Below are positions 3,933 to 32,474 of a DNA stretch of 39,614 nt, one piece after another. The translations under genes were made by a program, and so were the position numbers. The DNA lies in the NCBI GenBank assembly GCA_944392235.1, contig CALXVZ010000010.1, positions 1 through 39,614 on the forward strand. Direction: 5' to 3'. This stretch comes from an uncultured Alphaproteobacteria bacterium (GTDB lineage Bacteria; Pseudomonadota; Alphaproteobacteria; RF32; CAG-239). Position 1 is the first letter of the stretch; each line of letters begins with the position of its first letter. Below the pieces are notes generated by a model, which was given only the letters and a program-made list of their open reading frames with translations, had not been told where the DNA came from and did not search any database.

Positions 3933-4223
3933 ATGTCAGATATTACATTTAATGCAAATTTGCGTGAAAAAGCAGGTAAGGGGGCAGCTCGTGCATGTCG
4001 TAGAGAAGGCCGTATTCCTGCTGTTATATATGGTGGAAAGAAAAACGTTGTAAATATCAGTTTACACCCTGTTGAACTTGAAAAGGCTCTTGATCTTCGT
4101 GATTTCTATAAATCTGTTATTACTATCTCTTTAGATGGAAAAGCAGAAGAAGTAATCTGCAAAGATGTTCAGTTTGATCCAGTATCAGATATGCCAATAC
4201 ACGTTGATTTTATGCGCAAGTAA
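3933..4223 (+). CDS. rplY: 50S ribosomal protein bL25, short form
   Basis: Binds 5S rRNA in the large ribosomal subunit. The 96 residues begin with an alphaproteobacterial-type N-terminus (NANLREKAGKGAARACRREG, then RIPAVIYGG) and end at HVDFMRK, which is where the 5S-binding domain ends in longer homologues. Most alphaproteobacterial bL25 proteins are of the long CTC/TL5 type, about 200 residues, with a second beta domain. That domain is absent here, giving a protein of E. coli size. AAAGGA precedes the start. pth follows 11 bases after the stop, in the common rplY-pth-ychF order. Confidence 0.92.
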   Translation: MSDITFNANLREKAGKGAARACRREGRIPAVIYGGKKNVVNISLHPVELEKALDLRDFYKSVITISLDGKAEEVICKDVQFDPVSDMPIHVDFMRK

Positions 4224-4234
4224 GGACAGTGAAA

Positions 4235-4807
4235 ATGCATTTAGTGGTAGGTTTAGGCAATCCTGGTGAAGAATATGCAAAAACTCGCCACAATATAGGA
4301 TTTATGGCGGCTGATGAAATACACAGTCGCTATAAATTTTCTCCATTTAAAACAAAATTTGAAGGTCTCCTCGCAGAAGGCCTCATTAATGGAGAAAAAA
4401 CATTATTGCTGAAACCACAAACTTTTATGAATTTATCAGGGAATTCTGTAAATAAAGTGGCTATTTTTTATAAAATACCATCAGAAAACATCATTGTTAT
4501 ACATGATGACAAAGATTTAGCTCTAGGAAAGTTAAAAGCAAAGATCGGCGGTTCAGCCGGTGGGCATAATGGTTTAAAAAATATAGATTCCCAAATAGGA
4601 CCAAACTATAATCGTATCCGCATAGGTGTAGGCTCACCACAAGAGCATCATACAGATACAGTCAATTTTGTATTGTCACGATTCTCCAAGGCTGAAATGG
4701 ATACCTTGCAAGAAAGACTTGAATTCATCTCAGAGAGCATTCCAGAACTAATTAGCAAAGGCATAGCACAATATTCCAACATAATTGGCATGCACAATAC
4801 CAAATAA
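4235..4807 (+). CDS. pth: Peptidyl-tRNA hydrolase
   Basis: Cytoplasmic esterase that releases peptide from peptidyl-tRNA dropped by ribosomes. Family landmarks are present: GLGNPG with Asn9, catalytic His19 in TRHNIGF, Asn66 in TFMNLSG, and the Asp cluster HDDKDL at 90-95. The 190-residue length is normal. The start at 4235 has AAGGA eight bases upstream; the in-frame GTG at 4229 would sit only two bases from it. It is probably read from the rplY promoter. Confidence 0.95.
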   Translation: MHLVVGLGNPGEEYAKTRHNIGFMAADEIHSRYKFSPFKTKFEGLLAEGLINGEKTLLLKPQTFMNLSGNSVNKVAIFYKIPSENIIVIHDDKDLALGKLKAKIGGSAGGHNGLKNIDSQIGPNYNRIRIGVGSPQEHHTDTVNFVLSRFSKAEMDTLQERLEFISESIPELISKGIAQYSNIIGMHNTK

Positions 4808-10214: not shown

Positions 10215-11144
10215 TTACTCCCCAAGATTTAATCCGAGTAATTTCAAACTTTCTTTAAAATAATCAGGCAACTTTGCTTTTACAACCATTTTTTTACCAT
10301 ACACAGAAGATAAATCAATTTTATACGCATGCAAATGCAATTTATTAGCTAACAATTTATTTTTATCACGTTCTGAGCCAAAATACTTATCATCACCACA
10401 AATTGGAGTTCCTAAATATTCTAAATGCGCACGAATTTGGTGCGTTCTACCTGTTAAAGGAGCCGCAGCAACCAAAGCATATTTATCACCAACGCTATCA
10501 ATTACTTCATATTCTGTAACAGCAGGCTTTCCACCTTCTACAACCTGAACACGTCCATCCATTTTCTCTAAAGGAGCTTTAATTTCTCCAAATTCTTTTT
10601 CTGGAGTTCCTCTAGTAAGAGCCAAATAAGTTTTCTGCAGAGTATGCTCTCTAAAAGCTTTTGTTAAAACATCAGCCAATTTTCGAGTTCTGGCCAAAAC
10701 TAAAATACCACTAGTATCTTTATCAATACGATGAACTAATTTAGGTTTTTCATCATAACCAAATTTAAGAGCTTCAAGCATTCCATCAACATGACGGCTT
10801 GTATTTGTTCCCCCTTGAACAGCTAAACCAGAAGGTTTATTTAAGACAATAATTTTATCATCTTTATAAATAACAAGTTTTTCAATAAACTCAGCATCTT
10901 TAAAAGAAACATCCTGATGTTGAACCACTTTTTTCTCATTATCCAAAGGAGGAATACGTATATCTTGCCCTACAGAAAGACGAGTATTAGCCTCTGCTTT
11001 TATCCCATCAACTTTAATTTGCTTCGTTCTAAGCAGTTTTTGCAAACGCCCCAATGTTAACCCTGGGTAGTATTTCAAAAACCAACGATTAAGACGCATT
11101 CCATCGTCACATTCTTTTACTTTTACAATTTCAACACCAGACAT
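10215..11144 (-). CDS. rluC: RluC/RluD-family 23S rRNA pseudouridine synthase
   Basis: Converts uridine to pseudouridine in 23S rRNA. An S4 RNA-binding domain occupies about residues 15-50 (RLNRWFLKYYPGL, then LQKLLRTKQIKVDG). The catalytic domain follows with HRIDKDTSGILVLAR, which holds the nucleophilic Asp. Start 11144 is chosen because AAAGGA lies six bases upstream; an in-frame start at 11180 lacks one. The product is 309 residues. RluC versus RluD specificity cannot be decided here. It is the first large gene of the asmA-atp12-acyP unit and lies behind an unusual leader (11156-11424). Confidence 0.9.
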   Translation of the reverse strand: MSGVEIVKVKECDDGMRLNRWFLKYYPGLTLGRLQKLLRTKQIKVDGIKAEANTRLSVGQDIRIPPLDNEKKVVQHQDVSFKDAEFIEKLVIYKDDKIIVLNKPSGLAVQGGTNTSRHVDGMLEALKFGYDEKPKLVHRIDKDTSGILVLARTRKLADVLTKAFREHTLQKTYLALTRGTPEKEFGEIKAPLEKMDGRVQVVEGGKPAVTEYEVIDSVGDKYALVAAAPLTGRTHQIRAHLEYLGTPICGDDKYFGSERDKNKLLANKLHLHAYKIDLSSVYGKKMVVKAKLPDYFKESLKLLGLNLGE

Positions 11145-11155
11145 AAGCCTTCCTT

Positions 11156-11308
11156 TCATAAATTTTGGAAAGTGTAGCAAAAAGGCTTAAAAAAAACAAG
11201 CAAATAAAAAAGCCTCAACACTAGGTTGAAGCTCAAAACATTACAATTTAGGTGGACGATATGCCCGATAACAAACTTATTTCTGAATTTGTAGATTATT
11301 TGTGACAT
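11156..11308 (-). CDS. Possible 50-codon leader ORF before rluC
   Basis: Starts with MSQIIYKFRNKFVIGHIV and ends in a hydrophobic, aromatic-rich stretch. A near-ideal AAAGGAG site lies six bases before the ATG. The frame runs through an intrinsic-terminator hairpin (11205-11233), and its TGA is 11 bases before the rluC start, immediately ahead of the rluC ribosome binding site. That layout would suit a leader peptide whose translation opens the terminator and couples to rluC, but the peptide has no recognisable family. It could instead be a chance frame in a short untranslated RNA. Confidence 0.35.
   Translation of the reverse strand: MSQIIYKFRNKFVIGHIVHLNCNVLSFNLVLRLFYLLVFFKPFCYTFQNL
11205..11233 (-). 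terminator. Intrinsic terminator / attenuator upstream of rluC
   Basis: On the minus strand AGCTTCAAC pairs with GTTGAGGCT (nine pairs, one wobble, five-base loop), followed by six T residues. It lies between the promoter at 11390-11419 and rluC, so it must be read through, or it ends a short separate RNA. Confidence 0.7.
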
Positions 11309-11323
11309 ATCATTCTCCTTTCA

Positions 11324-11386
11324 CACCAAAACAAAATCTTATCCGCTCTGATGAAAAAGTGAACTATAGAGGCCTAAATTTTGGTG
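11324..11386 (-). ncRNA. Structured 5' leader RNA, unknown class
   Basis: On the minus strand an eight-pair outer stem, CACCAAAA with TTTTGGTG (11379-11386 with 11324-11331), encloses an inner stem CCTCT with AGAG-C-GG (368-372 with 343-349 of the 11 kb block, one bulged base). The closing stem ends just before the AAAGGAG ribosome site of the small ORF. The arrangement suggests a cis-acting RNA that controls access to that site. I do not recognise it as a known riboswitch class. Confidence 0.4.
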
Positions 11387-11389
11387 ATT

Positions 11390-11424
11390 TATATATGAAG
11401 TTAAAACGAATCGACTCAACTTCA
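11390..11424 (-). promoter_or_regulatory. Promoter of rluC leader with overlapping inverted repeat
   Basis: On the minus strand TTGAGT, 18 bases, TATATA. The spacer and -35 region are bracketed by TGAAGTT (11396-11402) and AACTTCA (11418-11424), a seven-base inverted repeat placed where an operator could act. Confidence 0.45.
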
Positions 11425-11547
11425 AATATAATATATTATAACATATTCTAATATAAATTGTAAGTTAAAACTGGTAGAAATCAAGGAAAATCAATAAATT
11501 AAATAATAATTTTGACATATAAACCAAGTTTATTTTAGGAGTAAAAA

Positions 11548-11769
11548 ATGAATGAATTAACGACAATTCGAAAAATATTGGAGCGTCTTAAAAAATACAT
11601 CACAAAAAAGAGAGGTTACATCTGTCAATACTGTGGTCATAAAACTTTCAGCCAAATGGGGGTAAGTGCGCACAATCCAAATCCAGACACCAACACTACA
11701 TCGCTGCAGGACATTGATAGGAAACCTTTTAAGACAAAAGCTCCAACAAGAAAAGATTATGTAAATTGA
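11548..11769 (+). CDS. Small CxxC protein, unknown function
   Basis: A 73-residue basic protein. YICQYCGHKTF at about 24-34 is a single zinc-knuckle-like CxxC. This opening resembles small bacterial proteins of the pattern YxCQYCG...C-x2-HP, but the second metal-binding pair is not evident: only His42 in SAHNPNPD follows. It may be a decayed or variant zinc ribbon. The ribosome site AGGAG lies seven bases before the ATG, which supports real expression. No operon partner is seen, and it converges on the bL12-like gene across a large palindromic terminator. Confidence 0.6.
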   Translation: MNELTTIRKILERLKKYITKKRGYICQYCGHKTFSQMGVSAHNPNPDTNTTSLQDIDRKPFKTKAPTRKDYVN

Positions 11770-11829
11770 TGATTCATAAATTCAACCTCCATATTGGAGC
11801 ATATACCTAAAGAAAATACACTAAATAAA

Positions 11830-11861
11830 GTAAAGAGCTCTTTAATTAAAGAGCTCTTTAC
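11830..11861. terminator. Perfect 32-base palindrome, bidirectional terminator
   Basis: GTAAAGAGCTCTTT, AATT, AAAGAGCTCTTTAC forms a 14-pair stem between two converging small genes. Each arm also contains self-complementary AAAGAGCTCTTT, so two smaller hairpins are an alternative fold. Confidence 0.7.
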
Positions 11862-11893
11862 CAAAACACTAAATAATACACTTTCAAAACAGG

Positions 11894-12097
11894 TTATTTC
11901 CGCCTTTTTTTAGCTTCACGCTCTAATCTACGGCGAACCTGACGAGAAACAGGTTTCTCAATAGCACCTAAACTTTCTAACGTTTCTCCCTGTTTAGGCT
12001 GAATACCATATTCTTCTTTCAAAATTTCAGCCAAACCTTGCACTTCTTTGCATCGAAGACTAACAAGTTCCTCGGCAATTGTTTTCAAATCACTCAT
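11894..12097 (-). CDS. Stand-alone bL12 (L7/L12) N-terminal-domain protein with basic tail
   Basis: Residues 1-34 ([32 protein letters not shown]) read as the N-terminal dimerisation and L10-binding domain of ribosomal protein bL12. The detail ([21 protein letters not shown]) is closer to what I recall of Bacteroidota bL12 than of the alphaproteobacterial form. The C-terminal domain that recruits translation GTPases is missing. Instead, a short linker (35-49) leads to a strongly basic tail, [17 protein letters not shown], at 51-67. It is therefore not the normal ribosomal protein. By family logic it could occupy the L10 stalk or pair with bL12, but that is inference. No clear ribosome binding site is seen before the ATG. 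It has its own promoter and lies 89 bases downstream of rarA. Confidence 0.75.
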
Positions 12098-12134
12098 AAC
12101 AATTAAATTTTAAAATAATTTCTTAGCAAAGACA

Positions 12135-12163
12135 TTGTTATCTCTAATTTAGAAAAAAGTCAA
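12135..12163 (-). promoter_or_regulatory. Promoter of the bL12-like gene
   Basis: On the minus strand TTGACT, 17 bases, TAACAA, 37 bases ahead of the start. This suggests expression independent of rarA. Confidence 0.55.
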
Positions 12164-12186
12164 ACAAGAACAAATAGACTAAATAC

Positions 12187-13509
12187 CTATTTTTTATTTA
12201 CTTTAGCCCGCTCACGCTGTTTTTCTGCTCGAAGTCTATCAAAATATTCTATTCTTTTTTTAATTTCGCGTTCAAATCCTCGGTCAACCGGATTATAAAA
12301 GCGTCTACGTCCCATTTCTTCAGGAAAATAATTCTGACCGGAAAAACCATCTTCCAAATCAGGATCATAAACATACCCTTCGTGATATCCAAGTTCTTTC
12401 ATCAATTTTGTAGGCGCATTTAGGATATGTTTAGGTGGCATAAGTGAACCAGTTTGACGAGCTGCATCAAAAGCACTATGCATAGCTTTATAAACAGCCG
12501 CAGATTTAGGAGCTGTTGCTAGATAAGTAGTTAATTGCATTACTGCTAAATCTCCTTCAGGAGAACCTAAGCGCTCATAAACTTCAGCACAAGCAATAGC
12601 TTGTGTAACAGCATTTGGATCAGCTAAAGAAACATCTTCAACAGCAAAGCGAATAAGTCTTCTCAAAATATAACGAGGATCCTCACCTGAAACTATCATT
12701 CGACTAACCCAATACAGAGCCGCATCAACATCAGAACCTCGCAAAGATTTATGAACAGCAGAAATAAGATTATAATGCCCATCACGCCCTTTATCATAGA
12801 TTGGAGCCCGTGAACGAATAATCTTCATTAACTTATTTTTATCAAAAATTTCCCCAGGTTTCGCATAAGCCCAAACACTTTCTGCTAAATTAAGGATATA
12901 ACGACCATCGCCATCAGCAACACTCTTCATAAATTCACGAGCTTCCTCCTCAAGAGGAAGTTTCATTCCCTCTTCTTTCTCAGCTCGTTGCAAAAGTTCT
13001 TCAAAATTTTCAGGAGTTAAACGATTAAGCACAAAGACCTGACAACGAGATAATAAAGCAGCATTAAGTTCAAATGACGGATTCTCCGTTGTAGCTCCCA
13101 CCAAAATAACAGTGCCGTCCTCTACATATGGCAAAAAACCATCTTGCTGAGACTTATTAAATCTATGAATTTCATCAACAAAGAGTAGTGTCCCTTTTCC
13201 CTGAGTAACTCTACGCTCCTTAGCATATTGAAAAACTCTTTTTAAATCTGTGACACCGGAAAAAACTGCAGAAATCTGTTCAAAATAAAGATTTGTATGT
13301 TCCGCAATAAGCCTAGCAATAGTCGTTTTACCACAGCCGGGAGGTCCCCAAAGAATAAAAGAAGAAACACGACCAGTAAAAAGCATTCTCCCTAAAGGAG
13401 AATCTTGACCTAAAACTTGTTCTTGTCCCACAACATCTTCCAATTTTCTGGGACGCAACCGATCTGCTAATGGTCTTTTTATACGACTAGAAAAAAGAGT
13501 TTCTTCCAT
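12187..13509 (-). CDS. rarA: Replication-associated recombination protein A (RarA/MgsA)
   Basis: AAA+ ATPase of the clamp-loader group acting at stalled replication forks. Walker A is GPPGCGKT at 55-62, Walker B is FVDEIHRF at about 110-117, sensor 1 is in GATTENPSF, and the C-terminal tetramerisation region includes LPPKHILNAPTKLMKELGY-type sequence (SLMPPKHILNAP here). At 440 residues it is full length. The ATG lacks a strong ribosome site. The 13510-13696 gap between it and the divergent helicase-like gene holds regulatory DNA only. Confidence 0.95.
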   Translation of the reverse strand: MEETLFSSRIKRPLADRLRPRKLEDVVGQEQVLGQDSPLGRMLFTGRVSSFILWGPPGCGKTTIARLIAEHTNLYFEQISAVFSGVTDLKRVFQYAKERRVTQGKGTLLFVDEIHRFNKSQQDGFLPYVEDGTVILVGATTENPSFELNAALLSRCQVFVLNRLTPENFEELLQRAEKEEGMKLPLEEEAREFMKSVADGDGRYILNLAESVWAYAKPGEIFDKNKLMKIIRSRAPIYDKGRDGHYNLISAVHKSLRGSDVDAALYWVSRMIVSGEDPRYILRRLIRFAVEDVSLADPNAVTQAIACAEVYERLGSPEGDLAVMQLTTYLATAPKSAAVYKAMHSAFDAARQTGSLMPPKHILNAPTKLMKELGYHEGYVYDPDLEDGFSGQNYFPEEMGRRRFYNPVDRGFEREIKKRIEYFDRLRAEKQRERAKVNKK

Positions 13510-13696: not shown

Positions 13697-14509
13697 ATGA
13701 GTTTTAAAGATTTAGGCTTAAGTGAAAAAACCATACACGCTATTGAAGATTTAGGATACAAAGAACCTACAACAGTCCAAAAAGATGTCATTCCCTCTAT
13801 TTTAACAGGAAAAGATATATTTACGATAGCCCCTTCAGCTTGCGGAAAAACTTGCTCATATATTTTTCCGTTAATTGACATTATCTCAAAAAACGAAGGC
13901 CAAAACATCTTAGTTATTGCCGCAGACAACAAAGAAGCTGTCAGCATTTCAGATAAATTTGCGATTTTTAATAAATATCATGAAATAAATGAAGAGAATG
14001 AAAATTCCGAAGCGAATGTAATTATTGCATCTCCTGATTTACTACTAGAAAATATTAATGAAAACAATTTAGATTTATCAAATATCAATATTCTTGTTGT
14101 TGATGATATAAATTCAATAAAGAAAAAACGCCAATTAAACAATTTAGATAAGATATTAGCACTTTTACCAATCAATAAACAAAATATCGTATTTACAACA
14201 AGACGCTCTAAAGAAACACAAGATACATTAAATAAAATATTAAAGACGCCTGCAGAGATAAAAGTAGATAAGAAACAAGAAAATATAGCCTCTGTAGAAC
14301 CAACGTTACCCAAAGAAACAAAAGATAACAAATACGAAGAAAAAAACACTAAAGAAGAAAGAGGAAATTATCCCAACACAAAACAAGATTTAAAACCTCC
14401 CTTATTAGATAAAAAAGCTTTAGATTTATCAAAACGTTATAAAGTCTTTGGAAAAAGAGCTCCAACATTTCTGTTAGCTAATACACAATTAGCAGAAGAA
14501 ACAGACTAA
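13697..14509 (+). CDS. Degenerate single-domain DEAD-box-like protein
   Basis: Residues 1-185 follow the first RecA-like domain of DEAD-box RNA helicases: a Q-motif (FKDLGLSEKTIHAIEDLGYKEPT, then TVQ, 3-28), Walker A as PSACGKT (46-52), a motif Ib-like ASPDLLL, and DDIN at 136-139 where DEAD is expected. Motif III reads TTR instead of SAT. There is no second RecA domain: after about 190 the chain becomes Lys/Glu/Asn-rich and ends RYKVFGKRAPTFLLANTQLAEETD. The frame is open and continuous, so this looks like a real shortened protein and not a frameshift. Loss of domain 2 and of the catalytic Glu argues against helicase activity; an RNA-binding or partner role is inference. It has its own promoter and AGGA ribosome site. 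Confidence 0.8.
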   Translation: MSFKDLGLSEKTIHAIEDLGYKEPTTVQKDVIPSILTGKDIFTIAPSACGKTCSYIFPLIDIISKNEGQNILVIAADNKEAVSISDKFAIFNKYHEINEENENSEANVIIASPDLLLENINENNLDLSNINILVVDDINSIKKKRQLNNLDKILALLPINKQNIVFTTRRSKETQDTLNKILKTPAEIKVDKKQENIASVEPTLPKETKDNKYEEKNTKEERGNYPNTKQDLKPPLLDKKALDLSKRYKVFGKRAPTFLLANTQLAEETD

Positions 14510-30231: not shown

Positions 30232-31257
30232 TCAGTATTTTTTATACAATGCCTTCACCTCTCTCTTGGAGATTCCTATTTTATTTCGAAAAACACCAAG
30301 ATTAACAGCACCTCCAACCACAATACCGTTAAAACGGTCTAGGTTATCATTCTGAATTACTCCAGAAAGTAGGCGCCACTGAATAAAAACAACAAAGCTG
30401 TTTCCAGTAGCAAAGGCTCTATGTTCAAAACGAATACCTGCAGTCGGATACATAAAATTGCCCCAAGACTGCAACTGGTATTCATTACCGTCCTCTCCTA
30501 AGAAAGGTTTTGAATTGGTGTTATACCATTCAAAACCTAATCCGCCGAAGAGGAATAGACGGTTTTGATTACACCGATCGATGCGGAACGGTTGGAAGGC
30601 TGCCTGAGCCTCTGTCCGGAAGCTCCAATACTTCTCACCTGCATTAATTGCATTGTGAGTATATTTGGAGTGACCAGCTTCCGCATTCAGAATACCTGCC
30701 CACCAAGAGCGGGAGTATTCCAAGCCTGCTCCGACGATAGGGCTGTTTACATGTTCTGCAAACTGCCAACCGGCATAAAGGTTTACACCCCAGCCGTATT
30801 TATCAACAGAGCGATGAACAACCTTTCCGGCGTTTATATCTCCTTCTGAAACCCCCTTCACACCATTAAAATAAGTGTAATAAGTGTCTCTATCAGAATC
30901 ACCGAACATTTTTTCGGCAAACTGAGTATTCACACTCTCTTTATAGAGTGCCGCCGCCTTCTCCTTATCTACCACCCAAATTGTATCAACTCTTAGGCGA
31001 TATGTTAAAGAATCATAACGATCCATCAGCTTTTCGTCTGATAGATACACTTTTCGTCTCACGACGATAGAGTCTTGTCCGGCTTTGTATGTAGACACTA
31101 CTGATGCGATAGTGTCTTTCTGATTTTTTACTAAGTAGTTCCAGCAAGCCTTCGCATCGCTTGTTGAAATACCGTTAACAACTCTCTGAGCACTGGCAGC
31201 TGTGCAAACCAATGCAAAAACAGCCACGAGGACTGTTCTAAAGAACATGTGTCTCAT
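30232..31257 (-). CDS. Twin surface protein 1: exported beta-barrel, unknown function
   Basis: A 341-residue exported protein. The signal peptide MRHMFFRTVLVAVFALVCTAASA and the next residues (through RVVNGI, codon 30) are identical to the gene at 31626. A helical mature domain follows (YLVKNQKDTIASVV ... DSLTYR, about 42-88) that is a distant paralogue of the same region in the twin. From about 155 (GWGVNLYAGWQFAE) a glycine/aromatic beta-barrel pattern runs to the end. The composition is more GC-rich than neighbours and the style (SAQ cleavage site, no ribosome site in an AT-rich leader) recalls Bacteroidota outer-membrane proteins, suggesting transfer. The promoter is nevertheless sigma-70-like. 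Confidence 0.72.
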   Translation of the reverse strand: MRHMFFRTVLVAVFALVCTAASAQRVVNGISTSDAKACWNYLVKNQKDTIASVVSTYKAGQDSIVVRRKVYLSDEKLMDRYDSLTYRLRVDTIWVVDKEKAAALYKESVNTQFAEKMFGDSDRDTYYTYFNGVKGVSEGDINAGKVVHRSVDKYGWGVNLYAGWQFAEHVNSPIVGAGLEYSRSWWAGILNAEAGHSKYTHNAINAGEKYWSFRTEAQAAFQPFRIDRCNQNRLFLFGGLGFEWYNTNSKPFLGEDGNEYQLQSWGNFMYPTAGIRFEHRAFATGNSFVVFIQWRLLSGVIQNDNLDRFNGIVVGGAVNLGVFRNKIGISKREVKALYKKY

Positions 31258-31559: not shown

Positions 31560-31635
31560 ACAAAAAGAAACAGCAGAATCTAGGATATACCTAAAATCTG
31601 CTGTTTCATAAAGTGGTCTTTCTCGCTAGAAAGAC
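31560..31635 (-). terminator. Terminator of twin surface gene 2, plus hairpin over its stop
   Basis: AAACAGCAGA pairs with TCTGCTGTTT (31568-31577 with 31597-31606), followed on the minus strand by CTTTTTG. A second perfect hairpin, GTCTTTCT-CGCT-AGAAAGAC (31616-31635), overlaps the stop codon. Confidence 0.8.
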
Positions 31636-32474
31636 ATGTTCACTCCTATATTTACAAATGGTCCGCCATTCGTAAAATCCTGTTTTCCACCGCCGTGGAA
31701 AACCTGTGGAAGAACACGGTACCCCGCTTCTACCACAAGTTGGAATCTTTTCGCAAAACCCCATGCTCCCCGAAGAGATGCATCCAGCGTTAATCCAAAA
31801 TTATCGCTGGTAACCTCTGCATCGGGCTTATCTGTTCTTTGATAAGCATATCCGGCAGAGCCAAATATCGCCAAATAAGAGCGATAATCTCGACTCTGCA
31901 AGAACTTCCAACCCACATTACCGGTGGCGATAAAAGTATCGTATTTACCGGATGTGGAGGCTGTGGAAGTATATGCCATAGTGGAATATGATCCCTCCAC
32001 TTCAAACAAGAAGTGACAGGTTTCATATCCCAAACGCAGTGTTGCCACCGCGTTCAAAGAATTGTCAACGTAGTTCGCCCCACCAAGGACGCTTACGTTG
32101 GCATGATGAATCTTAGAACCATCTGCACGTTGGTGTTTTGGATGGTAAGCTCTCCGCTCACCACGAAGCACCGCTTCTTTATCTTCAAAAGCAACATCAT
32201 TTGATGCTACCTCACGATAAGTAAGCGTGTCGCAGAGTGAATCTAATTTCTTACCTCTAATGAAATTGATGCGTCTCTCGACGTATCGAATTTCACCTTT
32301 TTTAGCTACTTCCGACAAAGCAATTATGACAGTGTCGGATGGGTTTTTTACCAGGTATTCAGCTACAGCTTTTTTGCTGAGTTCAATACCGTTAACAACT
32401 CTCTGAGCACTGGCAGCTGTGCAAACCAATGCAAAAACAGCCACGAGGACTGTTCTAAAGAACATGTGTCTCAT
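31626..32474 (-). CDS. Twin surface protein 2: exported beta-barrel, unknown function
   Basis: A 282-residue exported protein sharing its first 30 residues exactly with twin 1. The N-terminal mature domain (EYLVKNPSDTVIIALSEV ... CDTLTYR, about 38-85) is paralogous but much diverged. The barrel (from about 125, ANVSVLGGANYVDNSLNAVATLRLGYE) is different from that of twin 1 and ends in NMSF with a terminal Phe. YLAIFGSAGYAYQ and VVEAGYRVLPQ are typical barrel strands. It is richer in G+C than flanking housekeeping genes. The shared promoter module suggests co-regulation or exchange by recombination. Confidence 0.72.
   Translation of the reverse strand: MRHMFFRTVLVAVFALVCTAASAQRVVNGIELSKKAVAEYLVKNPSDTVIIALSEVAKKGEIRYVERRINFIRGKKLDSLCDTLTYREVASNDVAFEDKEAVLRGERRAYHPKHQRADGSKIHHANVSVLGGANYVDNSLNAVATLRLGYETCHFLFEVEGSYSTMAYTSTASTSGKYDTFIATGNVGWKFLQSRDYRSYLAIFGSAGYAYQRTDKPDAEVTSDNFGLTLDASLRGAWGFAKRFQLVVEAGYRVLPQVFHGGGKQDFTNGGPFVNIGVNMSF

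Follow-up and report, generated by a model that had tools for sequence, protein, structure and literature searches.

Dimers of bL12 (L7/L12, the product of rplL) are the recruiting arms of the ribosome. The window analysed here, which is the whole stretch of 39,614 nucleotides, carries a small gene whose product begins like bL12 and ends in a basic tail. The locus raises the question of what part of bL12, if any, this protein contains, where that part came from, and what it could do in a bacterial chromosome. An earlier note on this DNA had read the gene as a solitary bL12 N-terminal domain with a basic tail, served by its own promoter and possibly of phage or mobile origin; what it observed is borne out, and its interpretation is supported in part.

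The small gene and its chromosomal slot

The small gene is an ORF of 67 codons with an ATG start, and it lies in the chromosome among housekeeping genes. Its segments and the features around it are as follows.

10215-11180, minus strand: rluC-like pseudouridine synthase gene, downstream neighbour in the slot, in conserved position
11829-11862, minus strand: intrinsic-terminator-like hairpin of 15 pairs, directly 3′ of the small gene
11894-12097, minus strand: small gene (67 aa, stop codon included in the span), encoding a bL12-type N-terminal hairpin, a linker and a basic tail
11996-12097, minus strand: residues 1-34, bL12 N-terminal (dimerisation) domain of Bacteroidota sequence type, by a sub-threshold PF16320 match, family-level hhalign and a class-wide search
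11948-11995, minus strand: residues 35-50, variable linker, the segment that differs most at non-synonymous sites in 13 of 15 pairs
11897-11947, minus strand: residues 51-67, Arg/Lys-rich tail with 10 K/R, conserved in close relatives
12134-12163, minus strand: weak promoter-like site (TTGACT, spacing of 18, AACAAT)
12187-13509, minus strand: rarA (MgsA-type AAA+ ATPase), upstream neighbour in the slot (PF12002, E 1.4e-61)

The earlier note described the far end of the protein accurately. The bL12 C-terminal factor-binding domain (PF00542) was not matched in Pfam up to E 10 and the ORF ends at 67 aa, whilst the 17-residue tail sets its ten basic residues against only two D/E. The protein shares with Bacteroidota-type bL12 (PF16320) a two-helix hairpin of about 34 residues that starts at Met1 and closes on EYGI, and differs from it in its basic tail and in its locus, as rplJ and rpoB are not beside the small gene. 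The Ala/Gly-rich flexible hinge of bL12 is likewise missing from residues 35-50. Because the C-terminal domain, the hinge and the rplJ/rpoB neighbourhood are all absent, the small protein is not a bL12, and what it contains of one is the N-terminal domain.

The position of the gene is conserved, in a slot with the order rarA-(crcB)-x-rluC, where a crcB-like gene is only sometimes present. Here and below, rluC, crcB, rplY, pth and asmA are names for genes that we take to be such from the look of their sequence. Our survey of the slot covered 76 loci, five of them without a complete slot, and one genome (G027) was counted twice, leaving 70 genomes. The slot was empty in 16 of these 70, with the aligned ends of RarA and RluC at most 61 bp apart, and the empty examples include five genomes of the same genus as the window (G002, G013, G014, G015 and G018).

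As rarA lies upstream on the same strand, either directly or across the crcB-like gene, the small protein could be an accessory of RarA, a basic dimer that binds DNA in replication-fork repair. We regard this as improbable, given that the five same-genus genomes retain rarA beside an empty slot, and that L12-type copies in genus g3 are found away from rarA (2 of 10 such unlinked loci adjoin rplY- and pth-like genes). Furthermore, we know of no DNA role for bL12.

The slot is also occupied by other small proteins. In several other genera they have different N-terminal parts and a common basic end, [YFW]xPxxIGxxNxKxKGGR, and loci L230, L225, L218, L213 and L210 exemplify this positional family. 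Of 130 genomes searched with a model of that end, 44 gave a match (E 0.05 or better), some of them weakly, and the weak matches include a 19-residue frame elsewhere in the window's own genome. Slot proteins with this end, here called the KIGK-type tail, resemble the window protein in slot, small size and basic C-terminus; many of them have another N-terminal part, however, and the window protein lacks their tail, giving no match to the KIGK-type tail model A3. Two genomes of the same genus, G001 and G005, encode proteins with both the L12 hairpin and the KIGK-type tail. Members with the L12 hairpin thus end in a KIGK-type sequence, in an SRRERRK-like sequence as in the window protein, or in neither clearly (G025 and G104).

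The promoter claimed for the gene is a weak candidate. In its favour, all seven aligned genomes have the TTGA of the site unchanged; against it, four promoter-like sites were seen between 11450 and 12300, where 3.3 are expected by chance. A search of positions 11100-12400 against Rfam returned nothing at gathering scores. Between the small gene and the rluC-like gene, on the plus strand (11548-11769), lies a 73-aa ORF with a zinc-ribbon-like CQYCG motif, for which no convincing match was found in 11 related loci and no Pfam match up to E 10.

Homology, family and sequence type of the hairpin

Taken alone, the window protein gives a marginal bL12-domain call. Ribosomal_L12_N (PF16320) was its top match in Pfam, over residues 5-33 (E 0.0054), with a score of 16.9 bits that falls below the gathering cut-off of 25 bits. 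NCBIfam gave no L12 match up to E 10, and nothing significant came from PDB sequence searches, in which bL12 itself appeared only at E 4.3.

The protein has many relatives, and the word 'solitary' in the earlier note does not hold. A protein search of 58 related genomes found matches in 13, one being a true bL12, with relatives up to 78% identical; G034, the sole 'same order' genome among the 58, had no match. A profile of 12 proteins then matched 44 of 153 genomes of the host family, in 7 of 16 genera. Leaving out the true bL12 of G004 and a 30-residue interrupted frame in G064 reduced 45 matches to 43, and the resulting family comprises 43 members, the window protein included, in 42 genomes of one bacterial family. 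Members share the hairpin, the variable linker and the basic end, and 41 of the 43 have a net charge of at least +4 over their last 20 residues. Presence of the gene across the bacterial family is patchy.

At the level of this family the homology that the earlier note proposed for the first 34 residues is strong, even though the single-protein profile score is not. Alignment of the 43 members with the first 50 residues of 78 Bacteroidota bL12 by hhalign gave a probability of 99.3, E 8.4e-21 and a score of 99, over 36 columns from Met1 to the EYGIEP end, against a best score of 18 in 60 column shuffles. With 21 bL12 of the host's class the score was 55 (E 3.7e-11), and shuffles reached at most 14. 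A search of the host's class with the family profile found matches in 63 of 289 genomes, three of them host-family. Seventeen of the other 60 were inspected and all 17 are full-length bL12, the remaining 43 being judged by frame length only. Conversely, a model built from Bacteroidota bL12 alone matched the small slot protein in 32 of the 70 complete-slot genomes, which were chosen rather than random; no other ORF of at least 40 codons between rarA and the rluC-like gene matched at E 0.01 or better, with E reckoned for 1000 sequences.

The residues that are kept are those of bL12. In an alignment of 12 members A8, L11, L22, E29, Y30 and G31 are invariant and L4, V12, L14, E18, L26 and I32 nearly so, and these residues are also kept in Bacteroidota bL12. 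In a position table of all 43 members E29 and I/L32 are found in 43 of 43, partly by construction, since members were anchored on the motif E-[YFG]-[GD]-[IL]. The same table, in which the row of L023, among 21 from the class, is shifted by one position, reveals a difference from bL12 at the hairpin turn: position 16 is V or L in all 99 tabulated bL12, whereas V is found in only two of 43 members, and T or S is kept at position 15 in 22 of 43. The loss of V16 in 41 of 43 members means that the turn has changed, and contacts within the dimer or with uL10 may differ too.

The ORF is real and constrained. Among six genomes of the genus, dN/dS was 0.09-0.56 over 15 pairs, and in 13 of them the linker (cut here as residues 35-49) differed more at non-synonymous sites than either the hairpin or the tail, a pattern of purifying selection with a looser linker. 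The family is nevertheless fast-changing: the versions of the small protein in six genomes of the genus share 66-78% identity with that of the window, compared with 95-97% for RarA and 88-92% for the rluC-like protein. A 174-aa neighbour protein is lower still in the same six genomes, at 53-57%.

Decay of an rplL gene to a fragment, or a helical resemblance that arose by chance, would fit the sub-threshold Pfam score of the single protein and the patchy presence of the gene. Such an origin is very improbable in view of the purifying selection and the conserved slot, an hhalign score far beyond that of the column shuffles, and a class search that returns bL12 itself.

The hairpin of the window protein resembles bL12 from Bacteroidota more closely than that of its host family, as the earlier note had suspected. 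Over 34 residues it is 76% identical to the best Bacteroidota bL12, from a panel fetched with a pattern taken from the small proteins and thus biased towards likeness, and 35% identical to the bL12 of its own family; its best identity to the unusual EYGIEP-type bL12 of the host's class is 59%. Given 76% against 35%, transfer of a Bacteroidota-type domain appears the simplest reading, and to this extent the transfer suggested earlier is supported. The donor is best called 'Bacteroidota type' rather than proven Bacteroidota, because EYGIEP-type bL12 also occurs in one lineage of the class (G056, G306 and G403). In a tree of 34 positions and 82 rows, which leaves out L023, 11 ordinary class bL12 split from the rest with a UFBoot of 100, but the small proteins and Bacteroidota bL12 were not separated from one another (best clades with support of 43 and 36).

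Phages, plasmids and the rplL of carriers

Phage genomes were suggested as a source because some carry bL12 sequences. Neither the window protein nor one relative had a match in pattern-based searches of viral contigs, and the phage records contained no solo protein of the small-protein type. Three phage records did match: one is a contig with ORFs resembling bacterial rplK-rplA-rplJ-rplL-rpoB, and the other two belong to a single 735-kb phage, the one of these that was read having a gene for full-length bL12. The five plasmid matches comprised two that were read and are full-length bL12, and three annotated as rplL. In a scan of genome contigs, the best 80 of 503 relatives had, by reading of their names, Bacteroidota-type names throughout; the proteins are of full bL12 length in 78 cases, and of the other two one is cut off by a contig end and one appears frameshifted. 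With a housekeeping neighbourhood, a conserved slot and no phage or plasmid source found in these searches, a phage or mobile origin is not supported.

Published phage bL12-domain proteins (Mizuno et al. 2019, PMC6375957) match Pfam Ribosomal_L12, often inside larger proteins. They are similar to the window protein in that one part of bL12 is used outside rplL. The phage part, however, appears to be the C-terminal domain, the opposite half to the hairpin of the window, whereas the window protein has the N-terminal domain only, lies on a bacterial chromosome and is not a case of a C-terminal bL12 domain in a phage gene.

A further parallel is found on one viral contig, IMGVR_UViG_3300012016_000056, which also carries a terminase and a sliding clamp. 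Its gene at 4001-4417 (locus L040) joins a bL12 N-terminal domain (29.7 bits, above the cut-off) to a Thoeris anti-defence 2-like (Tad2-like) domain (PF11195, E 2.4e-22). As in the window protein, the bL12 N-terminal domain is detached from its C-terminal domain; the difference lies in the Tad2-like partner and in the lack of a basic tail. This locus, itself counted, is the only one of 27 related viral loci with a bL12 part.

We also considered the small gene as a replacement for rplL. Neither rplL nor rplJ was found in the window's draft genome, which is 77% complete, so the full-length rplL that the earlier note thought worth seeking there was looked for without success. Among 27 genomes surveyed, 14 are carriers, and nine of these have both rplL and the small gene. 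In the other five (G000, G003, G006, G008 and G009) rplL was not found, and rplJ was also not over the cut-off. In three genomes (G001, G011 and G017) rplL lies approximately 0.4-0.5 kb from a contig end, and two contigs share the rplL of G018; the loci of these four genomes are L030, L031, L019, L034 and L036. As rplJ is missing along with rplL in five carriers, rplL is near contig ends or split in others, and nine carriers have it, we infer that the absences reflect assembly dropout, and replacement was rejected.

Possible functions and other proteins of the window

Our best explanation, which we hold with about equal belief and doubt, is that the small protein acts as a basic dimer that binds RNA and whose dimer-forming part is a captured bL12 domain. 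An ancestor of the bacterial family would have captured a Bacteroidota-type bL12 N-terminal domain and joined it to a basic tail. The hairpin would form a homodimer, as in bL12, so that each particle would present two flexible basic tails, which would bind RNA, most likely ribosomal RNA. The kept core residues point to dimer formation, the charge of the tail is what suggests RNA binding, and the origin of the domain and, weakly, the rluC-like neighbour hint at a ribosomal partner. The two g3 loci that adjoin rplY- and pth-like genes also speak for this explanation. Variation of tail type within the family, the altered position 16 and the PDB searches that gave nothing significant count against it.

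Docking on uL10 is possible. In bL12 the N-terminal domain is the part that dimerises and anchors on uL10 (PMC12548414, PMC4592705), and this speaks for the main rival, the stalk decoy that the earlier note had raised, in which a dimer of the small protein on the C-terminal helix of uL10 would replace a bL12 dimer, leaving fewer factor-recruiting arms, whilst the tail grips rRNA. The hairpin is of a foreign type, distant from host-family bL12, V16 is almost always lost and nearly a quarter of the slots are empty, and we consider the decoy unlikely, if worth serious attention. Rather more speculatively, the foreign anchor half might serve as a fast-evolving stalk partner that does not bind factors and tunes the GTPase-recruiting arms, with interchangeable basic tails setting the place of binding.

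In the small protein a known domain is found in an architecture and a setting that are both new: in the open-access literature that we searched, no chromosomal protein that keeps the bL12 anchor without the arm is described. Docking on uL10 would make the small protein a native and genetically simple means to alter stalk occupancy. That this domain can act at the level of translation is suggested by a compound that binds the bL12 N-terminal domain and is reported to inhibit trans-translation but not normal translation (PMC12548414). Without docking of the small protein on uL10, the bL12 anchor would have been put to a second use, for dimerisation, and the phage Tad2 fusion hints at such a use too.

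Other proteins of the window have unusual features of their own. Two neighbouring minus-strand proteins (30232-31257 and 31626-32474) have identical, signal-peptide-like first 30 residues and different lengths, the latter with a weak outer-membrane barrel match below the cut-off. On the plus strand, 13697-14509 encodes a 270-aa protein that matches only the DEAD helicase domain PF00270 (E 2.5e-16), has the unusual motifs SACGKT and VVDD, and may be a single-lobe, inactive helicase; proteins 80-83% identical to it occupy the corresponding position in six genomes of the genus.
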